This document shows, piece after piece, positions 23,214-54,752 of a stretch of 64,000 nucleotides of DNA. The translations under genes and the position numbers were made by a program. The DNA comes from Pseudactinotalea sp. HY158 (lineage in GTDB: Bacteria > Actinomycetota > Actinomycetes > Actinomycetales > Beutenbergiaceae). Numbering within the stretch: the first letter of the stretch is position 1; each line of letters opens with the position of its first letter. The notes beneath the pieces are model-generated. The model searched no databases. It was not told the origin of the DNA and saw only the letters and a program-made list of their open reading frames with translations. Where the stretch lies: assembly GCF_009660225.1 (NCBI RefSeq), contig NZ_CP045920.1, positions 2,554,079 through 2,618,078 of the forward strand. The letters run 5' to 3'.

Positions 23214-26200
23214 TCAGGCGCGTTCGCGCCGTGCGCGCAGCACGACCCCGGCGCCGGCGATGAGCAGCAGCGCGCCGAGCACGACGGCCGGCATCACGCC
23301 CGCCCCCGTGTCGGGAAGCGCGCCGCCCGGCACCGTGGCGTCGTCGCCGGGAGTCTGCCCGTCGGCACCGTCGGCACCGTCAGCAGCCCCGTCGGCACCG
23401 TCGGCGCCATCAGCAGCCCCGTCGGCCCCGTCGGCGCCATCAGCAGCCCCGTCGGCCCCGTCGGCACCGTCAGCAGCCCCGTCGGCACCGTCGGCGCCGT
23501 CGGTCGGCGGGTCGGTCGGCTCGACGTCCGAGACGCCGAAGACGAGGGAGTCGACCTCGAGGCCACCGGTCGTGGTCACGTAGACCGTGCCGGAGCCCTC
23601 CGGGATCGAGTCGAACACGGCCGCGACATCCTGCCAGCCCGCCCCGCCCGTGAAGGTGAGCTCGGCGAACGGCTCGGCGCGGTACTCGTCCCAGCGGAGC
23701 GAGAGGGTGCCCTCACCGCTGGCCCGGGCCGTCACCAGGTCGATCGCCTCGCCGCTCGGTGCGTGCTGGAGCGTCATCGGTCGGAAGGCGAACCAGTCGC
23801 CGACGTCGAAGGAGGCGACCTTCTTCAGCGCCTCGGCCGACTCGTCCGCGACGATCTCGACCCCCTGGGCGTCGTCGAACCACTCGGCCTGCTGCTCGGC
23901 GGGCTTGAGCACGAGCGTCGCCTCACCGGTCGCGGCCGGGACGTCGCCCTGCGGGTTGTCCGTGTAGGTGACCACGAGGGTGCCGTAGAGCTTCTCGCCC
24001 GCACCGTGCTCGAGCGCGCTCTCACTGGTCTCGATCGTGAATTCGCAACCCGTTCCCGAGACCTCGGGGTGAGCGTGCTCGTTGTGTCCGAGCCCGAAGG
24101 TCCAGTTCACACGCGAGCAGTCGACGGTCGAGGGCTCCGGGTCGGGGGCGTCGGCGTAGGCGGCGAGCAGGTCGGCCACCATCTCCGCCGTGAGCGCTCC
24201 GCCCGACAACGCCACGAGGTCCTCGAGCGGCACACCCGCGGCCGCGGCGAGCGCGTCGGCGGGAACGCCGAGCACGTCGAGCAGGATCGGGCCGCCGAGA
24301 GCGTCCGAGAGCCACTGGCCGACGGTGGATCGGGCGGTGAGGGTCCGCTCGTACTCGACCCCCTCACCCCCGGCCGCGTCGTCCTCGGCGTCGGTCACCG
24401 TGACCGAGACGGGGACGTCGTCGCCCCAGCTGAAGAGCGAACCGTTCGGAACGCTGAGGCTCACCTCGGGGGCCGTGTTCCCGACCGTGATCTGAACGGT
24501 CGCCAGCCCGAACTTGCCGGCCTCGTCGGTCACGCGAAGCGTCACGTGGAACTGGCCGAGGTTCTCATAGGTGTGCGTGGCGGTCGGCCCGCCCTCGACG
24601 AACTCACCCGATCCGTCGAAGTCCCACTCGTAGGTGAGGTCCCCGCCCTCGGGGTCACGCGAGTCCGAGGCGTCGAAGGTCACGGTCAGCGGCACGTCGC
24701 TGCTGGAGATCGGGTCGGCGGTGACGAAGGCCTGCGGGGTCTTGTTCCCCTCGGCGTAGTCGACCCGGTAGAGCCCGGCGTCCGGGTTCTGACGGAAGAA
24801 GCCGTCGCCGTACTCGAGCACATACATCGAACCGTCGGGTCCGAACTCCATGTCCATGACGTTGTCCCAGATGGGCTGGGCGGCGTCGCTCAGGAAGGCG
24901 TTGGGAAGGAAGTTCTCGATCTGGGTGACCTGACCGGCCGAGCTGAGCTCGTCCAGCGTGATCGCTGCGACGTAGTCCATGGAGAACTCGGCCATGAAGG
25001 CCTTGCCGTCCCAGTACTCCGGGAACTGCGCGGGGGACTCGTTCGCCGGGTCGTAGCGGAAGATCGGGCCACCCATGGGGGCCTGGCCACGGCCGGTGCT
25101 GAACTCGATCAGTTCGTCCCACGGCTGGTCCCCGACGCTGTCGCCGTACCAGATCTGCGGCTGCGTGACCGCCGGGAGCTCGGTCAGGCCGGTGTTCCAG
25201 GTGGAGTTGTTCACCGGGGCGGCGCAGTCGAAGAACTCACCGGGGGTGCCGGTCTCGTAGTCCCACTCGTTGTAGGCGCCGCCGTCGTTCGGCCCGTGGC
25301 AGTACGGCCAGCCGCCGTTCATCGGCTCGGTCGTCAGTTGCCACTCGACATACCCCATGGGGCCGCGGTCGTCCTGCGCGGTGGCGGAGTCCGGGCCGTA
25401 GTCGCCCCAGACCAGCGCGCCGGACTCGGCATCGACGTCCATGCGGAACGGATTGCGCACTCCCATGACGTAGATCTCCTCGCGCACGAGGTCCGGGTCG
25501 TACTCGGGTGAGTCGAAGAGGTTCCCGGCCGGGATGTCGTACGTGCTCCCGGGACCGGGCTCGGCACCCTCGGCGATGCTCTCGCGCACGTCGATCCGCA
25601 GGATCTTTCCGCGCAGGTCGTTGCTGTTGCCCGCGCCGCGGCGGGAGTCGAAGCCCGGGTTCATCCCCGGGGCGTTGTTGATCGGGGTGAACCCGTTCGC
25701 ACCGGGCGTGCCCGCGGGGGTGTTGTCGCCCGAGGACAGATAGAGGTTGCCGTCCCCGTCGAAGGCGATGTCGGCACCGACGTGGCAGCACTGACCGCGC
25801 TGGGCGGTGATCTTGATGATCTCCTGCTCGCTCGTCAGGTCGAGGGTGTTCGAGGCGCCGTCCCACTGGAACCGGGACAGCACGTTGTAGCCGACCCACT
25901 GGTCCCAGTACGTCTCGGCATCCTCACCGTCCGGGAGCTGCTCGGGGGCGCTGCCCTCGGGTGTCGTCTCCGGGTAGGCGACCCCGGTCGGCGAGGTCCC
26001 CGCCATGACGCGCGGGGCGTAGACGAGGTAGACCCAGTTGTTCTCCTCGAAGTCCGGGTCGATGGCGATGCCCTGGAGGCCGTCCTCGGAGTTGTGATAG
26101 ACGTCGAGCTTCCCGGCCTCGGTGGTCAGGCCCGTCGACGGGTCCGTCAGGCGGACGACGCCGTCGCGCGCCGTGTGCAGCACGCGCGAGTCGGGCAGCA

Positions 26201-26426
26201 CCGCCAGGTCGATCGGCTCACCGGTGTCCTTGGTGAGCAGGATCTTCTCGTAGTTGTTCCAGTCGAGCGCGGGATCCTCCGCCGCGAGGACGGCGGCGGA
26301 TCCATCGCCCCCGTGCCCGGGAGCGGCGACCGCTCCCGTCATCGCCAGCGGCACGACCAATCCGGCGGCCATCGCCACCGCCGCGCCTCGGACCGACCAT
26401 CGGCCGGCCCCAGTCTGTCTGACCAT
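23214..26426 (-). CDS. LPXTG-anchored sugar-dehydrogenase propeller protein (exoprotein 2)
   Basis: 1070 residues. The ATG at 26426 is preferred because AAGGAGGA is placed for it; a GTG 15 nt upstream contains that SD. Signal peptide 1-35; glucose/sorbosone-dehydrogenase-type propeller about 45-550 (DSRVLHTARDGVVRLTDPS, QRGQCCHVGADIAFDGDGNL, VMGVRNPFRMD); PKD about 555-648; a cadherin-like region with a unique 75-residue insert (about 698-772); CBM6-like about 843-967; a Gly-Ala-Asp repeat spacer about 972-1022; LPDTG at about 1037, a membrane segment and RARRERA. It would be linked to peptidoglycan by a sortase encoded elsewhere. It lacks the ThuA domain of exoprotein 1 and is close kin to exoprotein 4 through the propeller. 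Confidence 0.87.
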   Translation of the reverse strand: MVRQTGAGRWSVRGAAVAMAAGLVVPLAMTGAVAAPGHGGDGSAAVLAAEDPALDWNNYEKILLTKDTGEPIDLAVLPDSRVLHTARDGVVRLTDPSTGLTTEAGKLDVYHNSEDGLQGIAIDPDFEENNWVYLVYAPRVMAGTSPTGVAYPETTPEGSAPEQLPDGEDAETYWDQWVGYNVLSRFQWDGASNTLDLTSEQEIIKITAQRGQCCHVGADIAFDGDGNLYLSSGDNTPAGTPGANGFTPINNAPGMNPGFDSRRGAGNSNDLRGKILRIDVRESIAEGAEPGPGSTYDIPAGNLFDSPEYDPDLVREEIYVMGVRNPFRMDVDAESGALVWGDYGPDSATAQDDRGPMGYVEWQLTTEPMNGGWPYCHGPNDGGAYNEWDYETGTPGEFFDCAAPVNNSTWNTGLTELPAVTQPQIWYGDSVGDQPWDELIEFSTGRGQAPMGGPIFRYDPANESPAQFPEYWDGKAFMAEFSMDYVAAITLDELSSAGQVTQIENFLPNAFLSDAAQPIWDNVMDMEFGPDGSMYVLEYGDGFFRQNPDAGLYRVDYAEGNKTPQAFVTADPISSSDVPLTVTFDASDSRDPEGGDLTYEWDFDGSGEFVEGGPTATHTYENLGQFHVTLRVTDEAGKFGLATVQITVGNTAPEVSLSVPNGSLFSWGDDVPVSVTVTDAEDDAAGGEGVEYERTLTARSTVGQWLSDALGGPILLDVLGVPADALAAAAGVPLEDLVALSGGALTAEMVADLLAAYADAPDPEPSTVDCSRVNWTFGLGHNEHAHPEVSGTGCEFTIETSESALEHGAGEKLYGTLVVTYTDNPQGDVPAATGEATLVLKPAEQQAEWFDDAQGVEIVADESAEALKKVASFDVGDWFAFRPMTLQHAPSGEAIDLVTARASGEGTLSLRWDEYRAEPFAELTFTGGAGWQDVAAVFDSIPEGSGTVYVTTTGGLEVDSLVFGVSDVEPTDPPTDGADGADGAADGADGADGAADGADGADGAADGADGADGAADGADGADGQTPGDDATVPGGALPDTGAGVMPAVVLGALLLIAGAGVVLRARRERA
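23361..23510 (-). repeat. 30-bp tandem repeats encoding a DGADGADGAA spacer
   Basis: About four to five copies of a 30-bp unit (CAGCAGCCCCGTCGG and so on, plus strand), in frame with exoprotein 2, giving an acidic, flexible stalk before the LPDTG signal. Copies differ only at a few third positions, so expansion is recent. Confidence 0.85.
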
Positions 26427-26605
26427 TCTCTCCTCCTTCACGTGGCCGGAGCACAGCGCGCGGCCGCTCGCCGACGGGCGGGCAGCAGCGGCGTGCGACC
26501 CGGGGCCACACTTCGGTGTGCTCTGGCATGGATACCGAGCTCTCAGCAGAGAGAGCTCCCTGTGACCCCTGATCGATGAATCGACGGCGGATCACACAAT
26601 CGACG

Positions 26606-35494: not shown

Positions 35495-36361
35495 TCACGC
35501 GGGGGGCATCACCGCCTGGAGGTGGGCGAGACCGTCGACCGCGATGGCGTCCTGGCTCGCTGCGAGCGGGCGCCAGATCGAGGCGGCGGTGGCGATGGTC
35601 GCGTTCTCCGCGGTGAAGGACTCGATGCACACCGGCCCGGTGTATTCCGCATCGTCGAGCGCGGCCACGATCTCGGGCCACGGCAGGTGGTCGGCGCCGG
35701 GGGCCCCGCGATCATTCGCGCAGACCTGCACGTGCGCGATCCGGGAGCCGGCCCGCCGGATCGCGGCCGGCACGTCGGTCTCCTCGATGTTCATGTGATA
35801 GACGTCGAGCAGCAGGCCGACCTCGGGCACGTCCGCCAGCGCCGTGAGCGCCTGGTCGACCGTGTTGATGAGCGAGGTCTCGTAGCGGTTGAGCGGTTCG
35901 ACGGCGATGCTCACCCCGGCCTCGCGGCCGTGGGCTGCGACCGGCGCGAGGTGGGCGGCCAGCTCGTCGTAGCAGCCGGCGCGTTCGGCCTCGCTCATCC
36001 GCCAGGTGCGCCCGACCGAGGCGTAGGCGGGCCCGGCGATGACGGACGCGCCGACGGTGTGGGCGGCATCGATCACGCCGCGCAGGTAGTCCTGGGTCAC
36101 TCGCACGGTCGCGGGGTCCGTGGCCACGAGCTCACGGCCCGGCCCCATGACGAGGGTGACGGTCGCGCCCAGGCCGAGGTCGGCCAGCAGCGCCGCGGCC
36201 GCGACGGGGTCCCAGTCGCCGAGGTTCTCGACCGGCAGCTCGATGAGGTCGAAGCCCCAGTCCTTGATGGTCGGCGCGAGCCGGCGCAGGGACTCGTCGG
36301 TCAGGGGGGAGGTCCACACCCAGGTGTTGACGCCCAGGGCGCGTCGAATACGGGACGGCAT
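35495..36361 (-). CDS. Sugar epimerase/isomerase of the D-tagatose 3-epimerase type (operon 2)
   Basis: 288-residue TIM barrel from the ATG at 36361. Metal/substrate motifs follow the D-tagatose/D-psicose 3-epimerase pattern: VAVEPLNRYETSLINT (about 145-160, the first metal Glu), LLLDVYHMNIEET (about 180, Asp and His), HVQVCANDRGAPG (about 205, His) and CIESF (about 240, second Glu). Such enzymes invert C3 of ketohexoses or act on related keto-acids and inositols. It lies between the binding-protein gene and exoprotein 3, about 200 nt after two hairpins. The SD is weak (GTGGA). The substrate is unproven. Confidence 0.86.
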   Translation of the reverse strand: MPSRIRRALGVNTWVWTSPLTDESLRRLAPTIKDWGFDLIELPVENLGDWDPVAAAALLADLGLGATVTLVMGPGRELVATDPATVRVTQDYLRGVIDAAHTVGASVIAGPAYASVGRTWRMSEAERAGCYDELAAHLAPVAAHGREAGVSIAVEPLNRYETSLINTVDQALTALADVPEVGLLLDVYHMNIEETDVPAAIRRAGSRIAHVQVCANDRGAPGADHLPWPEIVAALDDAEYTGPVCIESFTAENATIATAASIWRPLAASQDAIAVDGLAHLQAVMPPA

Positions 36362-36415
36362 CGTCGATCCACTTCGTCGGGGAGAAAGGGCCGCGTGATC
36401 GCGGCGGGAGATCGC

Positions 36416-36503
36416 GGGGCGCGGCGCGTGCTGCGTGCTGGACGCGCCGCGCCCCACGGATCGGGGTGACTCGGCCGGGTCACCGGGACCGGTCGGCCGA
36501 GTC
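36416..36503 (-). terminator. Two hairpins behind the operon 2 binding-protein gene
   Basis: Minus-strand order: GACTCGGCCG (36494-36503) pairs with CGGCCGAGTC (36468-36477), then a 13-bp stem of 36443-36455 with 36416-36428 around a 14-nt loop. As in operon 1, they lie directly after the binding-protein gene and likely give partial termination or mRNA protection. Confidence 0.65.
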
Positions 36504-36559
36504 GTCAACCGGTGTCAGGCCGGTGCCGGCCGGTGCCGGCTGGTGTCGGCTGAGTCGGC

Positions 36560-37801
36560 TCAGCGACCCTGCCAGGCCTCCGGGAAGCCGGGAAGGTCCT
36601 CGCCGCCGAACTTGGCGTAGTGGAGCGAGGGCATGTCCGCGTTCCGCTCGAGGTAGTCGCCGAGGTCGTCACCGGTGATCGGGGCCTGCGGGAGCACCCA
36701 TTCGGCCGGGACCTCCTCGCCGTTCCAGATCATCTCGGCCGCGAGCACCGGGGTGCGCCACTGGAAGTTCGAGTAGCTCATGCCGACCGCGGTCATGCCG
36801 GTGTCCTGCCACTTGCGCATGAAGCTCAGCTCGTCCTCACCCACGAAGACGGGGTAGTCGACGCCCATGTCCTCGAAGGCCTCGACGGCCGCGACGGCGC
36901 CGTCACCGGCGTCCATCCAGATGCCGTCGACGTCGCCGCGCTGGAGGTACTGCGTGACGATGTCCTTGATCTTGGCGGCGTCGCCCTCGGTGAACTCGAC
37001 GCCGACGACCTCGAGCTCGCTGTTCGCGAAGATGTCGTTCGCCGCACCCCAGCGGTGCTCGAGCACGTCGACGCCGGGCAGGATGCGCAGCGCGAGCACC
37101 TTCGAGCCGGGCTCGAGGTTGTCGACGAGGAACTCCGCACCGGTGGCGCCGTAGGCGTAGCCGCCGATCGGGTGGATGTAGGTGACCGCGCAGTCGGTGT
37201 TCACGCCGCGGTCGAAGACGATGACCGGCGCGCCGCTCTCGCAGGCCGCCTCGACGGCCGGGGTGAGGGTGGCGGTCGTCGACGGCGAGATGACGATCGC
37301 GTCGCAGTCGCCGTCGGAGATGAAGGACTGGATGTCCGAGATCTGCTTGTTGTCGTCGTCGGCCGCGTCCGCGACGCGGAACTCACCGATGACGCCCTCC
37401 TCCTGGAGGACCTTGACCTGCTGCTGCATCGTGGTGAAGCCGGTGACTCGCCACGGGTTCGAGACCGAGGCGTTGGAGAAGCACAGGGTCGCGTCGCCGC
37501 CCTCGGTGGCGAACTCGGAGGTGTCGACCATCTCGATCGGCTCGATCATCTGCAGCCACGGCGTGGCCGGGTCGCCCTCGGGCGTCATGTCGCGCTGCGC
37601 GAGCTCGGTCTCGTAGTCGGCGCGCACGAAGAACTCGCCCTCGGGCGTGCCGCCCTCGGCGGTGCCGGCGTCGGTCTCGCCGTCGGTGCCCTGAGTCGTC
37701 TCGGCGGCCTCCGGCGTCTCGTTCGAGGCATCGGTCGTACAGGCGACGAGCACGAGGCCGAGGCTGAGGAATCCGGCGGTCATTCGAAGCTTATGCTTCA
37801 T
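36560..37801 (-). CDS. Sugar ABC transporter substrate-binding lipoprotein (operon 2)
   Basis: 413 residues, SD AAGGAGG. Lipobox LVLVAC with Cys21, then a long acidic Thr/Glu/Gly-rich linker to about 60, and a type 1 periplasmic-binding fold: ATLCFSNASVSNPWRVTGFT (about 105-124), QISDIQSFISDGDCDAIVIS (about 154-173), APVIVFDRGVNTDCAVTYIH (about 190-210) and VDGIWMDAGDGAVAAVEAF (about 292). It is longer than the operon 1 protein and not a close paralogue, so the two systems probably bind different ligands. It is read after both permease genes. Confidence 0.9.
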   Translation of the reverse strand: MKHKLRMTAGFLSLGLVLVACTTDASNETPEAAETTQGTDGETDAGTAEGGTPEGEFFVRADYETELAQRDMTPEGDPATPWLQMIEPIEMVDTSEFATEGGDATLCFSNASVSNPWRVTGFTTMQQQVKVLQEEGVIGEFRVADAADDDNKQISDIQSFISDGDCDAIVISPSTTATLTPAVEAACESGAPVIVFDRGVNTDCAVTYIHPIGGYAYGATGAEFLVDNLEPGSKVLALRILPGVDVLEHRWGAANDIFANSELEVVGVEFTEGDAAKIKDIVTQYLQRGDVDGIWMDAGDGAVAAVEAFEDMGVDYPVFVGEDELSFMRKWQDTGMTAVGMSYSNFQWRTPVLAAEMIWNGEEVPAEWVLPQAPITGDDLGDYLERNADMPSLHYAKFGGEDLPGFPEAWQGR

Positions 37802-37889
37802 CTTTACCCTCCTTGGTATGAGATGAGAGATGGGTTGGGTTGGTCGAAGGGACGGGTACGGGGAGTCCGGGTGGCGGCGCGAGGTCAGG

Positions 37890-38927
37890 TCATCCGACTC
37901 CCACGGGGCTCGGCTCGGCCGGGGCCTGGGCCGCGACCTTCGTGCGCCGGGTGCGGGACTGATTCGCGGCGAAGGCGACGGCCGCGATGATGATGACCCC
38001 CTGGATCAGCGGATTGAGGGTCGAGGGCATCGCCAGCTGCACGAGCAGCCGCTCGAGCAGCTGATAGGTGAGCGCACCGGCGATGGCGCCGACGATCCAG
38101 CCGCGACCGCCGCCGAGGAGCACGCCACCGAGCACGACGGCGGTGATCGCCGTGAACTCCATGCCCTGCCCGACCTGGGCGGTGACGCCGGCGAAGCCGC
38201 CGATGAGGATGCCCGCCACGGTCGCCATGAGCGAGGAGAGGACGAACGCGCCCGTGCGCACGAGCCAGACCCGCCCGCCGGCGAACGTGGCGGCGGTGTC
38301 GTTGTCGCCGGTCACCACGAGCACCTGGCCGTAGGAGGAGCGCATGACGTAGATCCCGACGACCGCGATGACCACCATGATGATCGCCGCGTACGGCAGC
38401 TGGCGCAGCACCGGCATCTCGATGCCCATGCGGCCCCACTGCCGGAAGCTCTCCGAGAGGGCGCCCGTGGGGGAACCGCCCGTCCACATCCGGATCGCCC
38501 CGTAGAGCATGAGCATCGTGCCGAGCGTCGTGATGAACGACGGGACCCGCAGCAGCGTCGTCGCAAGGCCGTTGACGAGACCGACGACGAGCCCGAAGCC
38601 GATCATGAGGGCGATGACGGGCCACGTGCGGCTCTCCTCGCCGTCGATCAGGCGCGCCGCGATGACGACCTGGGCGCCCACGAGGCTGCCGACCGACAGG
38701 TCGAACTCCCCGGAGACGATGACGAAGTACTGGCCGATCGCCAGGATGACGAGCGGCGCCGCGGAGCGCAGGAACGCCATGAGCGAGGGCGGCTCGTAGA
38801 AGCCCGGGTTGAGGAAGACCATGACGAGCGCGAGGGCGACGAGCACGACGAACACGGGGGCGCTGCCGTTGTGCTTGAGGCGCTCCAGCAGGGCGGGCCT
38901 GGGCAGCTGCGTGGGTGCGGCGGTCAT
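37890..38927 (-). CDS. Sugar ABC transporter permease (operon 2, second)
   Basis: 345 residues, BPD_transp_2 family, eight to ten membrane segments. Marks: LVILAIGQYFVIVSGEFDLSVGS (in part, about 53-75), MRSSYGQVLVVTGDNDTAATFAG (in part, the coupling loop) and TAITAVVLGGVLLGGGRG (about 260). It overlaps the preceding permease by ATGA (38924-38927), so the two probably form a heterodimeric channel, unlike operon 1 with its single permease. Confidence 0.92.
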   Translation of the reverse strand: MTAAPTQLPRPALLERLKHNGSAPVFVVLVALALVMVFLNPGFYEPPSLMAFLRSAAPLVILAIGQYFVIVSGEFDLSVGSLVGAQVVIAARLIDGEESRTWPVIALMIGFGLVVGLVNGLATTLLRVPSFITTLGTMLMLYGAIRMWTGGSPTGALSESFRQWGRMGIEMPVLRQLPYAAIIMVVIAVVGIYVMRSSYGQVLVVTGDNDTAATFAGGRVWLVRTGAFVLSSLMATVAGILIGGFAGVTAQVGQGMEFTAITAVVLGGVLLGGGRGWIVGAIAGALTYQLLERLLVQLAMPSTLNPLIQGVIIIAAVAFAANQSRTRRTKVAAQAPAEPSPVGVG

Positions 38928-40018
38928 GAGCGTCCTCCTTGGGCTGCGCGGGCGGCGGCTCTCCGGCCACGCGAGGTCAGTTCACGGAACCTCGTCCTCG
39001 CCTTGTTCGGGTCGATCTGACGGCGGGCGTAGAGCGCGACGGCCGCGATGATGATGACGCCGCGGAGCACGTCGCGGGCGAACGGATCGATCTGCAGCTC
39101 GTTGAACACGCTGTCGAGCACGCCGAGGATGAACACGGCGGCGATCGTGCCGCCGATGCCGCCCCGGCCGCCGAGCAGGAGCGTGCCGCCGAGGACGACC
39201 GCGGCGATCGAGTCGAGGTCGTAGCCGGCGCTGTAGATCTGCGCCCCCACCCCGGTGCTGAACCGGGCCGCGAGGAGCAGGCCGGCCAGGCCCGCCATGA
39301 GCGAGCTGGCCACGTGGGCGAGGATGAGGGTGCGGTCCGTGCGGATGCCGGACAGGCGCGCGACGTCGATGTTCCCGCCGACGGCGAACATGCTGTGGCC
39401 GGTGCGCGTGCGCTGCAGCACGATGATCCCGACGACGGCGATGACGAGCATGATGATCGTCGAGAGCGGCAGGATGCCGATGCGCGTGTAGCCGAACGCC
39501 ACGAACGAGTTCGGCACGGAGCCGGACGGGCCGGGGTACTGGGTGTCGAGGAAGCCCTTGATCATGAGGCCGGCGCCGAGGGTGGTGATGAAGGCGTGGA
39601 CTCCGAGCTTCGTGGTGACCACGCCGTTGAAGAACCCGACGGCGGCGGAGACGGCGAGCGCCGCGACGATCCCGAGGACGACCCGGGACTCCTGTCCGTT
39701 CATGACGACGGCCGCGACGATACTCGACAGCGCGGCGACGTAGCCGACCGAGAGGTCGAGCGAGCGGCACAGGATGACGAACGTCTGCCCAATGGCGATG
39801 AAGCCGAGCAGGCTCGATCGGGTGAGGATGTCGACGATCGACCCGCCGCTGAAGAGGTTCTCGCCCTCGGTGGCGAGCAGCACGGCGCCGACGGCGACGA
39901 CGATGACGAGGGCGACGTAGATGAGCGGGAACGAGCGCAGCCTCGACTGCAGGGAGGAGCTCCCGGTGCCCGTTCGGGACGCCGGCGCGGCGGCGCGCGA
40001 TTCGGTCGGGGCGGTCAT
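38924..40018 (-). CDS. Sugar ABC transporter permease (operon 2, first)
   Basis: 364 residues. After a Ser/Ala/Thr-rich cytoplasmic N-terminus (about 35 residues) it shows the RbsC pattern: LGFIAIGQTFVILCRSLDLSVG (in part), RTGHSMFAVGGNIDVARLSGI (in part, coupling loop) and LDSIAAVVLGGTLLLGGRGG. The start overlaps the ATPase stop (ATGA, 40015-40018). The C-terminal tail is long and very basic (RRQIDPNKARTRFRELTSRG). Confidence 0.92.
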   Translation of the reverse strand: MTAPTESRAAAPASRTGTGSSSLQSRLRSFPLIYVALVIVVAVGAVLLATEGENLFSGGSIVDILTRSSLLGFIAIGQTFVILCRSLDLSVGYVAALSSIVAAVVMNGQESRVVLGIVAALAVSAAVGFFNGVVTTKLGVHAFITTLGAGLMIKGFLDTQYPGPSGSVPNSFVAFGYTRIGILPLSTIIMLVIAVVGIIVLQRTRTGHSMFAVGGNIDVARLSGIRTDRTLILAHVASSLMAGLAGLLLAARFSTGVGAQIYSAGYDLDSIAAVVLGGTLLLGGRGGIGGTIAAVFILGVLDSVFNELQIDPFARDVLRGVIIIAAVALYARRQIDPNKARTRFRELTSRGRRAAARAAQGGRS

Positions 40019-41523
40019 GCGAGTTCCTCGATTGCGTCGGTGCGGATGGCCAGGGCCATGACTTCCTCCTCGTCGGCGCCACCGGGCAGTTCGCCGCTGA
40101 TCTCGCCGTCGCCCAGCACGATGATGCGGTCGGCCATGCCGATGACCTCGGGCAGTTCCGAGGAGATGAGCACGATCGCCACCCCCCGGGCCGCCAGGTC
40201 GCGCATGAGTTCGTACACCGCGTGCTTGGCGCCGACGTCGATGCCGCGGGTGGGCTCGTCCATGATGATGACGCCCGGGTCGGTCAGCAACCACTTGGCG
40301 AGGACGACCTTCTGCTGGTTGCCGCCGGAGAGGAACCGGACCTCGTGGCCGCCGCTGCGGGCGGCGAGTTCGAGCGACGAGAGGACCCCGGGGGCACGGC
40401 GGGCGCCGGCCTTGGCCTTGCGCGGCATGACGGCGTCGAGCACGAGCCGGACGTTGGCCGCGACCGACTGGTTGAGGGCGAGCCCCTCGGCCTTGCGGTC
40501 CTCGGTCACGAGGGCGAGCCCGGCGCGGACGGCGTCGCGCGGACTGCGCGGGTCGATGCGGGTGCCGTCGACGGCGATCTCGCCGGTGACGAACCGCTCG
40601 ACGCCGAAGATCCCGTGGGCGATCTCGGTGCGGCCACTGCCCTGCAGGCCCGCGAGGGCCACGATCTCGCCGCCGTGGACGTCGAAGTCGATGCCGCGGA
40701 CCATCCCGTTGCCGGCGCCGCGCACGCTCAGGCGGACGTCACCGACACTCGTGCCCTCGCGCTTCTCCGGGAACATCGCGCTCATCGAGCGGCCCACCAT
40801 CTTGCGCACGAGTTCGTCGGTGGTGATGTCGGCCGCGTCGACCGAGTCGACCAGGGCGCCGTCCTTGAGGATGGTGATGCGGTCGCAGAGGTCGAAGATC
40901 TCCTTGAGCCGGTGGGAGACGTAGAGCACGGCCACCCCGCGCTCCTGCAACCGGTGCACGAGGCCGTAGAGGAGCTCGACCTCGTGGTCGGCGAGCGCGG
41001 CGGTCGGCTCGTCCATCGAGATGATGCGGGCGTCGAAGCTCATCGCCTTGACGATCTCGACGACCTGCTGCTCGGCGACGGAGAGGCTGCGCACCCTCGT
41101 GTGGGCGGAGATGCCGTCGATGCCCAGGTCGTCGAACAGGGCGGTCGTCTCGCGCACCATCCGCGCCCGGTCGACCAGGCCGTGCTTACGGGGCTCGCGG
41201 CCCAGGTAGACGTTCTCGGCCACGGTGCGCTCGGGGAGCAGGTTGAACTCCTGGAAGACCGTGGTCACCCCGGCGGCCTGAGCCTCGAGGGGATGGGAGA
41301 AGGCGACCTCGCGGCCGTCGAGGGTGATCGTGCCGCCGTCGGCCTGGTGGACCCCCGCGAGGATCTTCATGACCGTGGACTTGCCGGCGCCGTTCTCGCC
41401 GACGAGGGCATGCACCTCACCGGCGCGGACCTCGAGGTCGATGCCGTGCAGGACCTCGACGCCGAAGAACGACTTCGTGATCCCGCTCATTCGGAGCAAC
41501 GGCGCCCCTGTCGTCTTCGTCAC
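40015..41523 (-). CDS. Sugar ABC transporter ATPase, two cassettes (operon 2)
   Basis: 502 residues from a GTG at 41523 that overlaps the Gfo/Idh stop (GTGA) and has GGAGG about 9 nt upstream; an ATG at 41541 is the alternative. Cassette 1: Walker A GENGAGKST (about 41-49), LSVAEQQVVEIVKAMS signature region, RIISMDEPTAAL. Cassette 2: GLQGSGRTE (degenerate Walker A), FLSGGNQQKVVLAKWL, VIIMDEPTRGIDVG. Same family as the operon 1 ATPase and the RbsA/MglA group. It energises import with the two downstream permeases. Confidence 0.92.
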   Translation of the reverse strand: MTKTTGAPLLRMSGITKSFFGVEVLHGIDLEVRAGEVHALVGENGAGKSTVMKILAGVHQADGGTITLDGREVAFSHPLEAQAAGVTTVFQEFNLLPERTVAENVYLGREPRKHGLVDRARMVRETTALFDDLGIDGISAHTRVRSLSVAEQQVVEIVKAMSFDARIISMDEPTAALADHEVELLYGLVHRLQERGVAVLYVSHRLKEIFDLCDRITILKDGALVDSVDAADITTDELVRKMVGRSMSAMFPEKREGTSVGDVRLSVRGAGNGMVRGIDFDVHGGEIVALAGLQGSGRTEIAHGIFGVERFVTGEIAVDGTRIDPRSPRDAVRAGLALVTEDRKAEGLALNQSVAANVRLVLDAVMPRKAKAGARRAPGVLSSLELAARSGGHEVRFLSGGNQQKVVLAKWLLTDPGVIIMDEPTRGIDVGAKHAVYELMRDLAARGVAIVLISSELPEVIGMADRIIVLGDGEISGELPGGADEEEVMALAIRTDAIEELA

Positions 41524-42659
41524 CGGTCGACCTCCACCCATGTCTGTGATGCCGCGGACCGAACGACCGCGTCGGCGAGCCGGGCGGCCCGGAGGCCGTC
41601 GGCGAAGGTCGGCAGTCCGTCCGGCGCCTCGCCCGCGATCGCGCTCGCGGTGTCCGCGACGAAGCCCGCGAAGCACTCCTGGTACCCCTGTGGGTGCCCG
41701 GCGGGGACCGTGGTGTAGCGGGCGGCGGCCGGGGAGAGCGTCTCGGGGTCGCGGACGAGGAGCTGGGAGCCCTCGCGCCGGCCGACCCACAGCTTCTCCG
41801 ACTCCTCCTGGTCGAAGGCCAGGGTCGACTCGGTGCCCGAGACCTCGAGCAGCAGCCGGTTCTTCCGGCCGGGCGAGACCTGGGAGATGGTCGCGGTGCC
41901 GAGCACGCCGCCCCGGGTCTCGAACTGCATGACCACGAGGTCCTCGGTGTCCACCGCGTGCCGGGAGTCGACGCCACGGGTCGCATTCACGGTGTTGCTC
42001 CGGGCGCTCAGCGAGGTGATCGTGTCGCCGCTGACGAATTCGAGCAGGTCGCACCAGTGGGAGCCGATGTCACCGAACGCGCGCGTCTGGCCGCCCTGGC
42101 GCGCATCCACCCGCCAGTTGTCGTCCGTGGCGGCGCAGAGCCAGTCCTGCAGGTAGGCGCCGTGGGCGAGCAGCAGCCGACCGAGCTCGCCGCGGCGCAC
42201 CCGGTCGCGGGCCTCGCGGACCATCGGGTGGAACCGGTAGACGAAGGGGACGGTGCCGACGGCGCCGGTCTGTTCGATGGCCTGCCACATGTCGTGGGCA
42301 TCGCCGGGGTTCGTGGCGAGCGGCTTCTCGCACACGATGTGCTTGCCGGCCTCGATGGCGCGCATGACGAGCGGGTGGTGCAGGTAGTTGGGGGTGCACA
42401 CGTGCACGACGTCCACGTCGTCTGCGCTGAGCAGCTCGTCGACGTTTGCGATCGTACGGGTCGCCAGGAGCGCCTCGCTCGCCTCGGCGGAACGCTCGGG
42501 ATTGGACGCGACGACGCCGACCACCTCGCCCCCGTTGACACGGATCGCACGAGCATGGACACCGCCCATGAAACCGGCGCCGATGATCCCGGCCCGGTAT
42601 GTGGTCGTTGCCGCGACAGCGCGCGCTCTCTTGTCGACAGTGACGTCAGTTACAGCCAT
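41520..42659 (-). CDS. Gfo/Idh/MocA family oxidoreductase (operon 2)
   Basis: 379 residues; first gene of operon 2. Rossmann motif AGIIGAGFMGGVHARAI (about 24-40), VDVVHVCTPNYLHHPLVM (about 82-99), EKPLATNPGDAHDMW (catalytic Lys, about 114-128) and FGDIGSHWCDLLEFVSGD (about 199-216, active-site His). The C-terminal domain is typical of sugar/inositol dehydrogenases. The start at 42659 is 6 nt from the -10, so the message is probably leaderless. Together with the epimerase and transporter it suggests oxidation of an imported sugar or of a keto-sugar product. Confidence 0.9.
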   Translation of the reverse strand: MAVTDVTVDKRARAVAATTTYRAGIIGAGFMGGVHARAIRVNGGEVVGVVASNPERSAEASEALLATRTIANVDELLSADDVDVVHVCTPNYLHHPLVMRAIEAGKHIVCEKPLATNPGDAHDMWQAIEQTGAVGTVPFVYRFHPMVREARDRVRRGELGRLLLAHGAYLQDWLCAATDDNWRVDARQGGQTRAFGDIGSHWCDLLEFVSGDTITSLSARSNTVNATRGVDSRHAVDTEDLVVMQFETRGGVLGTATISQVSPGRKNRLLLEVSGTESTLAFDQEESEKLWVGRREGSQLLVRDPETLSPAAARYTTVPAGHPQGYQECFAGFVADTASAIAGEAPDGLPTFADGLRAARLADAVVRSAASQTWVEVDR

Positions 42660-42958: not shown

Positions 42959-43372
42959 TCACCTGCTGCGTGCGCGCCGGCGGACGGCGAGGTACACCAC
43001 GACGCCGACGGCGACGAGTGCGATCGCCGCGATGAGCAGGGGTTCGCCGAGGTCGAATCCGGTCGTCGACAACGCCCCGTCATCACTGGGCGACGCGCTC
43101 GACGTCGGACCCTCCGGCGAGGTGGGCCCCTCCGTCGAGGTCGGCCCGCCGGTCGGTGTCGCCGTCGGTGTCGCCGTCTCGGTCGGAGGCTCGGTCGGCG
43201 CCTCGGTCGGCGTCTCGGTCGACGTGATCTCCACGTCGACGTGCACGCCACTGTCGGCGTCCATGGTCTCGCTCGACGCGCCGTCGGTCGAGGCCCCCAT
43301 GACCGAAAGAGCCGCAATACCACCCGCAAAGAATCGGGCCGAAATACTATTCCAGCGTCGGTTACGAGCCAT
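42959..43372 (-). CDS. Small surface protein with atypical sorting signal (LSTTG)
   Basis: 137 residues from the ATG at 43372 (AGGAG upstream). Signal peptide about 1-29, then VHVDVEITSTETPTEAPTEP and a Thr/Pro/Ser/Gly-rich stalk, LSTTG at about 103, a hydrophobic segment (LLIAAIALVAVGVVVYLAV) and RRRARSR. Layout and the VDVEIT start of the stalk match the small LPXTG protein at 26.7-27.2 kb, so this is its counterpart beside the second WxL-like gene. LSTTG departs from LPXTG and from the LAXTG class; whether a sortase accepts it is open. Confidence 0.7.
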   Translation of the reverse strand: MARNRRWNSISARFFAGGIAALSVMGASTDGASSETMDADSGVHVDVEITSTETPTEAPTEPPTETATPTATPTGGPTSTEGPTSPEGPTSSASPSDDGALSTTGFDLGEPLLIAAIALVAVGVVVYLAVRRRARSR

Positions 43373-43520
43373 TAGTCCATACTCCTGTCGTCGTGCCCTC
43401 ATGCCCTCGAGATGCGTTCTGTAGCCCATACCCCCGGGCCCGCTCCGAGCATAGCGGCGATCTGCATCGATATCGAATTGCATTACCCGTCCAACGGTGC
43501 GCGGTAACGCACGGGCGAAC

Positions 43521-43554
43521 CGTGACCGGGTCCTGCGAACAGGACCCGGTCACG
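43521..43554 (-). terminator. Hairpin after the second WxL-like gene
   Basis: Perfect 15-bp stem (43521-43535 with 43540-43554) closed by a CGAA tetraloop. It lies about 65 nt beyond the stop at 43620. Confidence 0.85.
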
Positions 43555-43600
43555 GTCACTCGACGGATTCCGAGCACCGGAGCCTCTCCGTCCGGTCGGC

Positions 43601-44735
43601 GTGCTCGGTCAGGGTCGGGTCACTGTCCGTCTTCGAAGAGCGAGAGGGTCAGCACCGAGGAATAGCTGCCCGGGGCCACATCGGTCTCGGTACGCAGCAC
43701 CAGGTCCGCATTCGCCGTCCAACTGCCGTTCTCCGCCTGCGCCTCCTGGGAGTCGAGCGTCAGCAGGAACAACTCCTCACCCGCCAACCCGGGACCCTCG
43801 CCGACCGCGTCGAGCACGGTACCGACCTCCTGCCCCTCACCCACGGCCCCGCTCGAACTCTCGGTCACCATCGCCGGCGTCCACCCCAGGTGCTCCGGAC
43901 CGATCGAGGCCTGCCCCGCATCACCCACGAAGTCACTCGCCTGACCCACCACATACCAGTACACGCCCTCGGGCGCGTCACTGCGATCATCGGTCACGGT
44001 CACATTCGGCAACTCCCCGGTGAACTGACGGAACTCCTCGGTCGACCCGTCCTCGACCAGCGTCGACTCCGTGCCATCGACCGTCATCGTCAACGCACCC
44101 ACCGACTCGATCTCGACACCGATCTCGACCGCACTGGTGTCCTCGGCATCCGGATGCGCGGCCATCGCCGCCGTCCCCACACCCACGAGCATCACACCAC
44201 CGACCGCACCGACCACGGCACGCCCGACCACACCGCGCTGAACCACACTGCGCTTGACCATCTTCTTCTCCCATTCCGGCTCAACACCGAACCGATCGAT
44301 ACGACACAGGCCCACCGGGCCCGCGAACCACACATCACAACAACGACCCGGCCACCCGCGGGTGGCCGGCCGGGGCCGGCCCGCCCCCGGGAACACACAC
44401 CCCCGGGGAACGGACCGACCACCGACCCACTCGACCTACGAGCAGGACACCGCCTCGTAGGCGAGCACCTCCTGCCCATCCAGCCCGTCGCCGCCCGTCG
44501 CATCGACGGTGAGCTCACCGCCGTCGATCGCGACCGACCGCGTCGTGAACGCGAGCGACTTCGTCGCACCATCGGCCAGACCCACAACAGACCTGGTACC
44601 GAAGGCCGTCTCCACACTCACATCGAGCGGGACACCGGCCACATTCGTCACCGACGCCACCAACACCTGCCGACCGGCCACACACCGAGTCGTCACCGAC
44701 GTCTCCGTCAGCACCTCCGCCGGCGGCTCCGGCTC
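43601..44735. repeat. Large duplicated segment, copy B (1135 bp)
   Basis: Partner of 28315-29451. It contains the second WxL-like gene, its upstream region and the end of exoprotein 4. Outside these limits the two loci are unrelated: the DUF916 gene follows copy A, a terminator and the LSTTG gene follow copy B. The sharp boundaries suggest a recent duplication or ongoing gene conversion. Confidence 0.95.
43620..44261 (-). CDS. WxL-like surface protein, copy B
   Basis: 213 residues, identical to the protein at 28.3-29.0 kb except for one residue (GQASIGPEH here, GQAPIGPEH there). Same start (ATG 44261), SD and signal peptide. A terminator hairpin follows and no DUF916 gene is present, so if it needs a partner it must use the single DUF916 protein encoded at 27.2-28.3 kb or one outside the window. 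The LSTTG surface protein lies 248 nt downstream. Confidence 0.72.
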   Translation of the reverse strand: MVKRSVVQRGVVGRAVVGAVGGVMLVGVGTAAMAAHPDAEDTSAVEIGVEIESVGALTMTVDGTESTLVEDGSTEEFRQFTGELPNVTVTDDRSDAPEGVYWYVVGQASDFVGDAGQASIGPEHLGWTPAMVTESSSGAVGEGQEVGTVLDAVGEGPGLAGEELFLLTLDSQEAQAENGSWTANADLVLRTETDVAPGSYSSVLTLSLFEDGQ

Positions 44736-47700
44736 ACCGGCCTCGAGCCCGGTGAGGTACTCGAACCCGGTCGTCACGAACTCCTCACCCTGAGGGGCCA
44801 GGTCGTACTCCATCACGTAGTACGCGATATCGGCCTCGAGCGCCGCCGCCAGGATCGCCTGCAACGGCACATCGCCCTCACCGAGGTTCGTGAACTGCGG
44901 ACTTCCGGGACCGCCCAGGTTGATGGCGTCCTTGATGTGGAGCAGATCGATCCGGTCGCCGTAGGTCTCGAGCAGCGTCGGCACATCCACACCGGCATGG
45001 GCCGCCCAACCGACGTCCACCTGGAACGTCACGAACTCGGGATCGGTCTCGCGCACGAGGATCTCCCATGCCGAGAGCACCTCGCCCTCGTGCTCATAGG
45101 TCGTGGTGAACTCGCCGGCATGGTTGTGGCCGAAGAACTTGCCCACACCCGCCTCGACGGACCGCTGACCCAGCCGGTTCATCGCCTCGGCCGTGGCCAG
45201 CGTGTTCTCGTACGTGCCGATTCCCGGACTGGGGAATCCGCCCGAACCCACGTACTCCTGACCCACGGTCGAAACATACGCCAGCGTCTGATCGAAGCTG
45301 CCCTCGCTCACATTGTAGTGAGAGGACGGCACGCTCAATCCATTCGCATCCGCCAGTGCACGGAACTCCCCGGCCGTATAGCCGCTGTAGTTCCCGCCAT
45401 ACGGTTCGATATTCTCCAAACCGATCGAACCCAACCGGCCCAGCACCGACTCCAGCCCATCCGCATTCACCCATGGGATCAACGAATACAGCTGAATCGA
45501 CACCCGGTCGACCGGTACCACCACCGGCTCGACCGGCACCTCATCGACCACCCGGAAGTAGTCGAAGGCGACCTCGGTCGGCTCGGACTGGCTCTTGCCG
45601 ACCGTGAACAGGCCGGGCCCGGCGTCGCCGAGTCCGCTGTGCGTCACCGAGCCGGGCAGATCCGTCCACTCCTGGCCGTCATAGGAGAACGCTCCCGTGA
45701 ACGTATCGCCGGAGCGGCTGAGCCGGACGTAGTAGTCGCCGTTCTCGGAGAGCGGCAGGTCGGCGATGTCGGCCTGCTCGGGCTGCTGGAACTGCCCGTT
45801 CACCTCGGAACGGATCTCCAGGCGCAGGGGCGCCTCGTTGCCCGCCGTGTCGGCGGCGAAGACCGGGTCGACCTTGACGTAGTTGTCGGGGTCGGCGTAG
45901 ACCATGATCCCGGCCTGGTGCCACTGGCTCGAGAAGCCCGAGTTGAACTTGGTCTCCACGGTCCACTCGTCGCCCTCGACGACGGTCGAACGCAGGATGT
46001 TCGGAACGGGCTCGTTCACCGTGCCGTTGATGTCGGCATCGACCGTGGTCACCCGGTAGGCGCCGTCGCTGACCCCTGCCAGGGCCGGGTCGTAGTCGAT
46101 GATGTCCCAACGGCAGGCGTCGACCTCATCACCGTCGAACTCGTCGTCCGCCGAGATCTCGGCACCGGGGTTCGCGCACACGGGAGCCGCGGGGCCCTGC
46201 CCCGCGTCCGAGTGGAAGGCGAGCGAGTCGAGGTCGACTCCCCCGGTGCTGGTCACCACGAGCGAACCGGAACCCGCGGGGACGGTCTCGAGGGCCGCCT
46301 CGACGCTCTGCCAGCCGTCGGCTCCGGTGAACGCCAGTTCGGCGAACGGTGCCGGCTCGTCGTTCCAGCCCAGCGAGATCGTGCCCGTGCCCGTGCCCGT
46401 GGCGGTCACGGAGTCCATGACCTCACCGCTGGGAGCGTGCGTGAACGCGATCGGCGAGAAGGTGAGCGAATCGCCGTCGTCGAACTCGGTCACGTACGAG
46501 CCACCGCTGGCGCCGGCGTCGTTGACCACCGTGATGCCCTCGGCCGTGTCGTACCACTCGGCCTCCTGCAGCGTCGGCGTGAGGATGAGCGTGGCCTCCC
46601 CGGTCGTCGCCGGGACGTCGCCCTGGGCGTCGTCGGTGTAGCTCACCACGAGGGTTCCGAAGATCTTCTCTCCCGCCCCGTGGTCCTTCGCGCTCTCGCT
46701 CGTCTGGATCGTGAACTCGCACCCGGTGCCGGTGACCTCGGGGTGGGCGTGCTGGTCGTGGCCGAGCCCGAAGGTGTGCCCGACCCGCGCGCAGTCCGGT
46801 GTGTCGCCGTCCTCCGCGTCCGTGACGGACACGGTGATGTCGACGCTGTCGCCCCAGTCGAAGAACGAACCGTCGTCGACGTCGAGGGTGATCTCCGGCG
46901 CGGTGTTGCCGACCGTGATCTGCTGGACGGCCAGGCCGAAGAGGCCCTCCGGATCCGTCACGCGCAGGATCGCCTTGTACTGGCCGAGCTCGGAGTAGGT
47001 GTGGGTGATCGTCTCGCCCTGGTCGTCGATGACGCCGTCGCCGTCGAAGTCCCACTCGTAGGTGAGTGCCTCGCCCTCCGGATCGAAGGAGCCGGAGGCG
47101 TCGAAGGTCACGTCGAGCGGGGCGTCACTGCCGGAGACCTTGTCGACCGAGATCGCCGGCCGGGGGGTCTTGTTCTCCGGGTTGTAGTCGATGCGGTAGA
47201 TGCCCGCCTCCGGGTTCTGCCGGAAGAAGCCCTTGCCGTACTCGAGCACATAGAGGGAGCCGTCCGGCCCGAACTCCATGTCCATGATTCCCGACCACTC
47301 GGGTGCCGCCTGCTCGTAGAGAGCCGAGCTCGGCAGGAAGTTGGTCACGCCGGTGACCTCCCCGGCGCTCGAGAGCTCGTCCATCTCGATGGCCGCGACG
47401 TAGTCCTGGGAGAACTCGGCCATGAAGGCCTTGCCGTCCCAGTACTCCGGGAACTGAGTCGGTGAGGGGTTGGTCTCGTCGTAGCGGAAGACGGGCCCGC
47501 CCATCGGGGCCTGACCGCCGCGGCTCGAGAAGGTCACGAACTCGTCCCAGGGCTGGTCCCCGGCGTTGTCGCCGTACCAGATCTGCGGCTGCGTGACCGC
47601 CGGGAGCTCGGTCAGGCCGGTGTTCCAGGTGGAGTTGTTCACCGGGGCGGCGCAGTCGAAGAACTCACCGGGGGTGCCGGTCTCGTAGTCCCACTCGTTG

Positions 47701-48863
47701 TAGGCGCCGCCGTCGTTCGGCCCGTGGCAATAGGGCCAGCCGCCGTTCATCGGCTCGGTCGTCACCTGCCACTCGACATACCCCATGGGGCCGCGGTCGG
47801 CCTGGGCCGAACCGGAGTCGGGGCCGTAGTCGCCCCACATGAGCGCGCCGGACTCGAGGTCGTAGTCCATCCGGAACGGATTGCGCAGACCCGTGACGTA
47901 GATCTCCTCGCGCACGAGGTCCGGGTCGTACTCGGGTGAGTCGAAGAGGTTCCCGGCCGGGATGTCGTACGTGCTCCCGGGACCGGGCTCGGCGCCCTGC
48001 GCGATCTGGTCCAGAACGTCGATCCGCAGGATCGACCCGCGCAGGTCGTTGCTGTTGCCCGCGCCGCGGCGGGAGTCGAAGCCCGGGTTCATGCCCGGGG
48101 CGTTGTTGATCGGGGTGAACCCGTTCGCACCGGGCGTGCCCGCGGGGGTGTTGTCGCCCGAGGACAGATAGAGGTTGCCGTCCCCGTCGAAGGCGATGTC
48201 GGCACCGACGTGGCAGCACTGACCGCGCTGGGCGGTGATCTTGATGATCTCCTGCTCGCTCGTCAGGTCGAGGGTGTTCGAGGCGCCGTCCCACTGGAAC
48301 CGGGACAGCACGTTGTAGCCGAGCCACTGGTCCCAGTACGTGTCCGCGTCGGCTCCGTCCGGGAGCTGCTCGGGGGCGCTCCCCTGCGGTGTCGTCTCCG
48401 GGTAGGCGACCCCGGTCGGCGAGGTCCCCGCCATGACGCGCGGGGCGTAGACGAGGTAGACCCAGTTGTTCTCCTCGAAGTCCGGGTCGAGGGCGATGCC
48501 CTGGAGGCCGTCTTCGGAGTTGTTGTAGACGTCGATGTCTGCGACCTCACGGGTGAGGCCCGTCGACGGGTCCGTCAGGCGGACGACGCCGTCGCGCGCC
48601 GTGTGCAGCACGCGCGAGTCGGGCAGCACCGCCAGGTCGATCGGCTCACCGGTGTTCTTGGTGAGCAGGATCTTCTCGTAGTTGTCCCACTCGAGTGCGG
48701 GATCCTCCGCTGCGAGGGCGGCGGTACCGGCCGGGTCGGTGTCGCCGTCGTGCCCAGGATGAGCACTCGCCCCGCTGATCGCGAGCGGCAACACCAAGCC
48801 GGCGGCCATGACCGCCGCCGCGCCTCGGGCCGACCATCGGCCGGCCCTTCTCCTTCTGACCAC
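44436..48863 (-). CDS. Secreted sugar-dehydrogenase propeller fused to a TIM-barrel isomerase domain (exoprotein 4)
   Basis: 1475 residues from a GTG at 48863 with GGAGGA upstream; exoprotein 2 begins similarly (VRQ/VRR...GRWS). Signal peptide about 1-35; glucose/sorbosone-dehydrogenase propeller about 50-555, close to that of exoprotein 2 (QRGQCCHVGADIAFDGDGNL); PKD about 563-651; CBM6-like about 766-884; DUF1349-like about 898-1106; then, uniquely, a xylose-isomerase-like TIM barrel about 1118-1374 (VSIQLYSLIPWVNADGLESV, GLENIEPYGG, FFGHNHAGEF, FQVDVGWAAHAG, LLHIKDA); finally the shared C-terminal domain about 1378-1475. Codons of the TIM segment look less GC-biased than the rest, which hints that it was acquired separately. 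No LPXTG. A single exported chain thus pairs a sugar oxidase fold with a sugar isomerase fold. Confidence 0.86.
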   Translation of the reverse strand: MVRRRRAGRWSARGAAAVMAAGLVLPLAISGASAHPGHDGDTDPAGTAALAAEDPALEWDNYEKILLTKNTGEPIDLAVLPDSRVLHTARDGVVRLTDPSTGLTREVADIDVYNNSEDGLQGIALDPDFEENNWVYLVYAPRVMAGTSPTGVAYPETTPQGSAPEQLPDGADADTYWDQWLGYNVLSRFQWDGASNTLDLTSEQEIIKITAQRGQCCHVGADIAFDGDGNLYLSSGDNTPAGTPGANGFTPINNAPGMNPGFDSRRGAGNSNDLRGSILRIDVLDQIAQGAEPGPGSTYDIPAGNLFDSPEYDPDLVREEIYVTGLRNPFRMDYDLESGALMWGDYGPDSGSAQADRGPMGYVEWQVTTEPMNGGWPYCHGPNDGGAYNEWDYETGTPGEFFDCAAPVNNSTWNTGLTELPAVTQPQIWYGDNAGDQPWDEFVTFSSRGGQAPMGGPVFRYDETNPSPTQFPEYWDGKAFMAEFSQDYVAAIEMDELSSAGEVTGVTNFLPSSALYEQAAPEWSGIMDMEFGPDGSLYVLEYGKGFFRQNPEAGIYRIDYNPENKTPRPAISVDKVSGSDAPLDVTFDASGSFDPEGEALTYEWDFDGDGVIDDQGETITHTYSELGQYKAILRVTDPEGLFGLAVQQITVGNTAPEITLDVDDGSFFDWGDSVDITVSVTDAEDGDTPDCARVGHTFGLGHDQHAHPEVTGTGCEFTIQTSESAKDHGAGEKIFGTLVVSYTDDAQGDVPATTGEATLILTPTLQEAEWYDTAEGITVVNDAGASGGSYVTEFDDGDSLTFSPIAFTHAPSGEVMDSVTATGTGTGTISLGWNDEPAPFAELAFTGADGWQSVEAALETVPAGSGSLVVTSTGGVDLDSLAFHSDAGQGPAAPVCANPGAEISADDEFDGDEVDACRWDIIDYDPALAGVSDGAYRVTTVDADINGTVNEPVPNILRSTVVEGDEWTVETKFNSGFSSQWHQAGIMVYADPDNYVKVDPVFAADTAGNEAPLRLEIRSEVNGQFQQPEQADIADLPLSENGDYYVRLSRSGDTFTGAFSYDGQEWTDLPGSVTHSGLGDAGPGLFTVGKSQSEPTEVAFDYFRVVDEVPVEPVVVPVDRVSIQLYSLIPWVNADGLESVLGRLGSIGLENIEPYGGNYSGYTAGEFRALADANGLSVPSSHYNVSEGSFDQTLAYVSTVGQEYVGSGGFPSPGIGTYENTLATAEAMNRLGQRSVEAGVGKFFGHNHAGEFTTTYEHEGEVLSAWEILVRETDPEFVTFQVDVGWAAHAGVDVPTLLETYGDRIDLLHIKDAINLGGPGSPQFTNLGEGDVPLQAILAAALEADIAYYVMEYDLAPQGEEFVTTGFEYLTGLEAGEPEPPAEVLTETSVTTRCVAGRQVLVASVTNVAGVPLDVSVETAFGTRSVVGLADGATKSLAFTTRSVAIDGGELTVDATGGDGLDGQEVLAYEAVSCS

Positions 48864-49430
48864 ATTTCCTCCTCGAAATTGCGCGCCCAGATCGCGAGAT
48901 GGCACAGCAGCACGGCGACGTGAGCAGCGTCGGTTGGTCACGGGGGCGGCGTGGACACCACATGCGGCGGGCCACCGGCCCTGATTACCGTGATGTGTCC
49001 CACCCTAGTCGCAGTTTTGTAATCGTCAACCATGAAGTCTGGAGTGCAGACTCGCTCAAATGTCACACTTCTGCACAGAGAAGTCGCGTTCCGGTGCGTG
49101 ATGAACGAAAACGAGCGTCATGCCGATCGACGAGCGCGCGTTCTGCGCCGAAAACGAGCATCGAACGCCATCCTCCGGTCGAACGCCGAACCTCCCGATC
49201 GGTGACGACCATTCGGATGATCCGACCGACCGCACGTACGACATCACCCAAAGCCTCGGGCCATATGTCGATCCGCATTCCCGTTAATAGACTATCGGCT
49301 TATCCCGAAGTCACTTTCGTCGAATCGAATTCCTCGGCCATTCACCACCCGTGGCCCGGAGCGCGCCGACACGGACCGGCCACGCGGCGTCCGTCGCCTC
49401 CCGACGACCGACACGATCCGCAGCGCCGAC
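48864..49430. promoter_or_regulatory. Gene-free region with the exoprotein 4 promoter
   Basis: Minus strand TTGACG (49024-49029), 16-bp spacer, TAGGGT (49002-49007). GTCAACCATGAAGT (49025-49038) overlaps the -35 and is followed by CTGGAG as at exoprotein 2. The leader is about 140 nt. The remaining 390 nt (49040-49430) is lower in GC and contains nothing I can support. Confidence 0.65.
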
Positions 49431-50792: not shown

Positions 50793-50912
50793 CTCGGCAC
50801 CTTCCCGATCCTCACGCACTCCGGGCCCACGGTCTGGGCCCACGGTCTCCGTTCGGAGGAGCCCCCGGCGACCGTCGGCGCCTGCCGGCGGCTTCACCGG
50901 GGTGGCTTGCAT

Positions 50913-50995
50913 AGTGACGACTTTCATATAACCTGACCTGAGAGAGTGACGCAAGTTGCCGCACTTACGAACGCGAAGCCGCGACTAACGTAAGT
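50913..50995. promoter_or_regulatory. Divergent promoter region between prenyl synthase and the ebo-like operon
   Basis: Minus strand: TTGCGT, 18 bp, TATATG (50925-50930) for the synthase. An inverted repeat ACTTACG (50963-50969) and CGTAAGT (50989-50995), 19 nt apart, sits upstream, the type of site bound by a dimeric regulator acting on both directions. The plus-strand promoter of the cyclase gene was not identified with confidence. Confidence 0.5.
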
Positions 50996-54698: not shown

Positions 54699-54752
54699 CC
54701 TGTCCGATCACCCCCGATCCGCCGGCACCAGCCTGAACCAGGAGCAGCACCC

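Follow-up and report, generated by a model that had tools for sequence, protein, structure and literature searches.

The locus and its genes

The window considered here is a stretch of 64,000 nucleotides from the genome of the actinobacterium Pseudactinotalea sp. HY158. Its minus strand carries a long gene for a multi-module exoprotein, for which a GTG start at 48863 is preferred over the first codon of the longest frame (48941) because a GGAGG sequence sits just ahead of it. Residues of the barrel module consequently bear two numberings, 1144-1402 when counted in the 1501-residue frame and 1118-1374 when counted from the GTG. The gene and its modules are as follows.

44436-48941, minus strand: longest open reading frame of the fusion protein, 1501 residues, open throughout
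44436..48863, minus strand: secreted fusion protein from its likely start (GTG at 48863, GGAGG close upstream), 1475 aa
48762..48863, minus strand: probable signal peptide VVRRRRAGRWSARGAAAVMAAGLVLPLAISGASA, read from the sequence; the genome's second barrel protein starts with a near-identical leader
47172..48701, minus strand: GSDH (PQQ-type sugar dehydrogenase) beta-propeller, from Pfam, structure model and domain alignment
46938..47162, minus strand: PKD domain (PF18911, residues 594-668)
46212..46565, minus strand: CBM6 (PF03422, residues 793-910)
45549..45986, minus strand: DUF1349/GH43_C2 concanavalin-like module (Pfam, residues 986-1131)
44736..45512, minus strand: TIM barrel, predicted Mn-dependent 3-keto-glycoside 1,2-lyase (residues 1144-1402 of the long frame)
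44436..44735, minus strand: C-terminal module of 99 aa, whose DNA matches the 3' end of another exoprotein gene (29152-35463)

The Pfam order is thus GSDH, PKD, CBM6, DUF1349/GH43_C2 and AP_endonuc_2, the last of these (PF01261) matching with an E-value of 3e-10, over the gathering score. A preliminary description of this DNA had proposed that a barrel is fused into a secreted protein with propeller, PKD and CBM6-like parts, and the open frame together with its Pfam modules bears this out.

Further genes of the surroundings are as follows.

23214..26441, minus strand: paralogue with GSDH, PKD and CBM6, a sortase-type tail and no barrel; GSDH domain 87% identical
35495-36508, minus strand: separate psicose-3-epimerase-like barrel gene
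within 35495..42054, minus strand: sugar ABC transporter genes (ATPase-like frame, permeases, binding protein)
41520..42659, minus strand: Gfo/Idh/MocA oxidoreductase, candidate 3-keto sugar reductase

Two further exoproteins, at 17895-22832 and 29152-35463 (1645 and 2103 aa), have the order ThuA-GSDH-PKD-CBM6 and are devoid of a barrel. Beside the exoproteins lie small secreted-looking proteins, one of LPXTG type at 26687-27202 and one resembling WxL-interacting proteins at 27199-28272; the frames 42959-43483 and 43620-44396 (region 42959-44396) resemble the LPXTG and WxL-interacting-like set at 26687-29146, and these small proteins possibly represent a WxL-type surface complex. The right flank (49431-63085) is occupied by an apparently unrelated Ebo-type cluster with matches to EboA, EboC and EboE, after which a xylose isomerase gene, xylA, is found at 59920-61089. 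In-frame AQDTRD... repeats at 49431-49800 form the C-terminus of a frame that resembles polyprenyl synthase by its motifs.

Outside the window, the genome encodes a second barrel protein (open frame G000:C1:2641251-2643764, equivalent to L047:6252-8765), which consists of a signal-like leader, two barrels with a short linker module between them, and an LPETG sortase-type tail. PF06439 has three matches elsewhere in the HY158 genome.

The propeller

The N-terminal propeller was modelled with a pLDDT of 90 and adopts the GSDH fold, with sGDH and Asd as the closest structures. In the alignment of GSDH domains (A2), H164, R273-N274 and G293-P294 are invariant. Judging by the sequence, two arginines that bind PQQ in Acinetobacter sGDH are apparently missing from the propeller, with the His, Arg-Asn and Gly-Pro motifs kept. 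A search of the HY158 genome for PqqC gave no match, but the search control was also without a match. The propeller is a putative C3 oxidase; no GSDH propeller is known to be specific for C3.

The barrel resembles 3-keto-glycoside 1,2-lyases

The preliminary description had read a complete xylose-isomerase-like barrel from the motifs IEPYGG, GHNHAGEF, FQVDVGW and LLHIKDA, and all four are in place within 44736-45512. The fold, a complete xylose-isomerase fold within a protein of 1475-1501 aa, was modelled with AlphaFold2 from an alignment of 65 relatives (pLDDT 96.5). The top solved structures for this model are BDI_3400 (3obe), the 3-keto-beta-glucopyranoside 1,2-lyases AL1 (8tcd, 8tcr) and BT1 (8tct), and 3l23, with Z-scores of 26.9-28.6; the next structural group below this set starts at Z 24.3, and xylose isomerases and epimerases follow at about 20. 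AL1 and AtOGE (8bvk) are also among the best sequence matches in the PDB, with the identity to characterised lyases being just 25-29%.

In AtOGE, the metal is held by His132, Asp163, His189 and, weakly, Glu233, and His134 serves as the catalytic base (PMC10628242). The residues H132, H134, D163, H189 and E233 of AtOGE correspond to H1272, H1274, D1309, H1335 and E1378 of the barrel, and these five are unchanged in all full-length relatives examined, including both copies of tandem barrels. The barrel thus combines a xylose-isomerase-type TIM fold nearest to characterised lyases with four metal ligands and the base H1274, and its assignment as a 3-keto-glycoside 1,2-lyase, for which sequence and structure model both give good support, is probably correct.

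A degenerate barrel, which loss of metal-binding residues would have indicated, was considered and rejected, the metal site and the catalytic histidine being intact in the alignment with relatives. For the same reason it is scarcely credible that the barrel only binds sugars, as its place among binding modules might suggest: the full metal site and the catalytic histidine are invariant in the full-length copies. A secreted enzyme that epimerises or isomerises free sugars, the identity favoured in the preliminary description, would fit the shared superfamily PF01261 and the epimerases and isomerases that match at Z of about 20. These nevertheless rank under the lyases, which are the nearest solved structures; the only NCBIfam PF01261 equivalog match, to IolE, misses its cut-off with 29.8 bits against the 290 required; the first metal ligand is a histidine, as in AtOGE; and a keto-glycoside enzyme domain is found among the fusion partners of such barrels. 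An epimerase or isomerase is, on this evidence, improbable.

Recurrence of the fusion

A search of 396 genomes of the order placed the strong matches to the barrel (61-80% identity) in long frames of 837-2396 residues, in two families. Fusion loci were found in Georgenia, Oceanitalea, Cellulosimicrobium, Oerskovia, Ruania and Serinibacter, often with two barrels, and fall into three types: GSDH-PKD-CBM6-(DUF1349)-barrel(s); ThuA-GSDH-PKD-CBM6-...-barrel; and PA14-propeller-like-CBM35-PF06439 (3-keto-disaccharide hydrolase)-barrel(s), the last in some cases with SLH domains. The full order of the exoprotein, GSDH-PKD-CBM6-DUF1349-barrel, which the preliminary description had recommended looking for elsewhere, is also present in two Ruania genomes. 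As a separate observation, the ThuA-GSDH proteins of Georgenia and of another genome (G067) have the barrel near the C-terminal end.

Barrels of the fused type form a single clade (support 100/100), within which, by parsimony, the type of partner switches about ten times. Remoter relatives (approximately 50-58% identity) are short and start with leaders that resemble signal peptides. Four genomes have a gene for an unfused barrel, again with such a leader, immediately downstream of a GSDH-CBM6 gene, in the same orientation and after a short gap. The earlier statement that such enzymes are normally cytoplasmic is at odds with these leaders on close unfused relatives. Barrel and GSDH genes are linked across genomes, and fused, probably secreted forms recur. 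A wide spread over the phylum was not seen. In a sample of 396 genomes from across it, only three had a match at E 1e-40, namely HY158 itself and two genomes with short frames of the unfused type.

Because the fusion is found in several related actinobacteria, it represents a real design and no accident. Misassembly, together with a domain that otherwise occurs alone inside the cell, had been named as the finding that would explain the fusion away; it is excluded since many independent genomes contain this fusion and the window comes from a one-contig genome. The domain fusion is real, intact and recurrent, and sequence and structure model replace the isomerase label with that of a predicted lyase.

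Composition and origin of the barrel

The preliminary description had also noted that the barrel segment is less GC-rich than its flanks, as if inserted. The compositional part of this claim is confirmed: GC3 is 0.82 in the barrel and 0.92 in the remainder of the protein, and a change-point scan selected residues 1142-1461 as the best low-GC3 segment, with a log-likelihood gain of 19.4, against which 60 shuffles reached 8.2 at most. The segment opens at the barrel boundary and extends into the tail domain. Ruania barrels are likewise lower in GC3 than their surroundings, and the two barrels of the second HY158 protein (GC3 0.95-0.98) are without a dip.

At the DNA level, the 99-aa tail and that of the 29152-35463 exoprotein are 96.7% identical. 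This near-identity covers the 99-codon 3' ends (44436-44735 and 29152-29451), continues for about 60 bases downstream, and drops to chance from the end of the barrel; a third copy, 94.7% identical, is located at 17895. As the identity falls abruptly at the end of the barrel, this module edge is a recombination point, and the sequence bears signs of a recent gene conversion of the C-terminal module.

Outside the genome, the nearest relatives of the propeller, CBM6 and DUF1349 are in Ruania (80-82% identity for the propeller, its highest outside HY158), and those of the barrel are in Georgenia, Oerskovia and Cellulosimicrobium (78-79%, versus 73% to Ruania). An approximately unbiased (AU) test, however, did not reject a tree in which the barrel groups with Ruania and the second copy of its own genome (p 0.37), and gave no proof that the barrel was replaced by recombination. 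The compositional edge behind the "as if inserted" claim is real, and insertion from an outside source is possible. A stronger version, in which a recently inserted foreign barrel is functionally unlinked to the propeller, would draw on the GC3 shift, the divergent nearest relatives and the recent copying of the tail from that of the neighbour, or the reverse. Against it stand the five-module order shared with two Ruania genomes, the adjoining GSDH and barrel genes elsewhere, the grouping retained by the AU test and the similar GC3 dip in Ruania, all of which make it very improbable. The low-GC3 barrel and the tail copied from a neighbouring gene more likely reflect module shuffling, as far as the sequence can tell.

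Proposed mechanism

In a published pathway, a glycoside is oxidised at C3, a Mn-dependent barrel eliminates the aglycone, the resulting glycal is hydrated and the 3-keto sugar is reduced (PMC10628242); the breakdown of levoglucosan involves the identical four steps (PMC7676230). For 3-ketolactose, a periplasmic route that involves a PF06439 protein has been proposed as well (PMC9007349). The domain set of the exoprotein fits the first two steps, placed outside the cell. The CBM6 and the concanavalin-like module would grip a plant or microbial glycan, and the propeller would oxidise the terminal sugar at C3. The C-terminal barrel could then bind the 3-keto sugar via a divalent metal (H1272, D1309, H1335, E1378), and His1274 would take the C2 proton, so that the glycosidic bond is broken by beta-elimination and a 2-hydroxy-3-keto-glycal is formed. 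This glycal might be hydrated by the same or another barrel, and hydration by the same or another lyase is considered possible (PMC13273386). The products would be taken up through the adjoining ABC transporter and reduced inside by Gfo/Idh/MocA enzymes.

The barrel could instead be mainly a hydratase of 2-hydroxy-3-keto-glycals, the bond being cut by ThuA, PF06439 or a partner protein. AtHYD (8ro4) is present in the list of structural matches, hydration is performed by another barrel from this superfamily in one published pathway (PMC10628242) and by a separate enzyme, LgdB2, when levoglucosan is broken down (PMC7676230), and the PF06439-barrel fusions of relatives would suit cleavage followed by hydration. 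AtHYD nonetheless ranks far lower than the lyases (E 8e-10 against 1e-15), and the barrel has the exact catalytic set of AtOGE, which renders a mainly hydrating enzyme unlikely, if clearly less so than an epimerase.

From sequence and models, the protein is probably an extracellular glycoside-cleaving enzyme that employs oxidation and elimination instead of hydrolysis. The more specific proposal, that one secreted chain performs both halves of the reaction, C3 oxidation by the propeller and beta-elimination by the metal-dependent barrel, on polymer-bound sugars, is more tentative and falls somewhat short of an even chance. The same reserve applies when it is joined to the view that the exoprotein may be one of a group of actinobacterial surface proteins that shuffle the propeller, ThuA, the 3-keto-disaccharide hydrolase and either one lyase barrel or two.

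The degradation of glycans by oxidation and elimination has been elucidated mostly for separate enzymes, either intracellular or in the Gram-negative periplasm. The present data suggest that some Gram-positive actinobacteria keep this pathway extracellular, on single chains that combine several modules, carbohydrate-binding ones included. If true, this would add a polymer-facing mode to a non-hydrolytic pathway, give the uncharacterised GSDH-PKD-CBM6 exoproteins a testable function and offer ready-made cascade enzymes. The barrel family is already known. Its extracellular multi-module use was not found described in the literature searched, and titles and abstracts of the open literature, queried for the domain combination and for keto-glycoside lyases, yielded no paper on this fusion, although a prior description is possible.

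Comparison with known systems

AL1 from Alistipes (8TCD/8TCR) and BT1 from B. thetaiotaomicron (8TCT) match the whole barrel in fold (Z 27.6-28.3) at 27-29% identity. They are single barrels, with solved chains of approximately 270-290 residues, whereas the barrel described here is one of several modules in an exoprotein of 1475 aa that also contains a dehydrogenase-type propeller. The Agrobacterium O-glycoside beta-eliminase AtOGE (8BVK) has all metal ligands and the catalytic histidine in common with the barrel, but it is a single-domain protein of a four-enzyme operon with separate oxidoreductases, in which C3 is oxidised by the flavoenzyme GlycDH (PMC10628242).

With the soluble PQQ sugar dehydrogenases (sGDH, Asd; PF07995), the exoprotein shares the propeller fold and the His, Arg-Asn and Gly-Pro motifs; it differs from them in the apparent loss of two PQQ arginines, the added PKD and CBM6 and the fused barrel. 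The periplasmic 3-keto-lactose route (LacABC and DUF1080) follows a common logic, C3 oxidation beyond the cytoplasm and then cleavage, yet employs separate proteins in a Gram-negative periplasm (PMC9007349). Its DUF1080/PF06439 domain is, in relatives of the exoprotein, fused to this very type of barrel.
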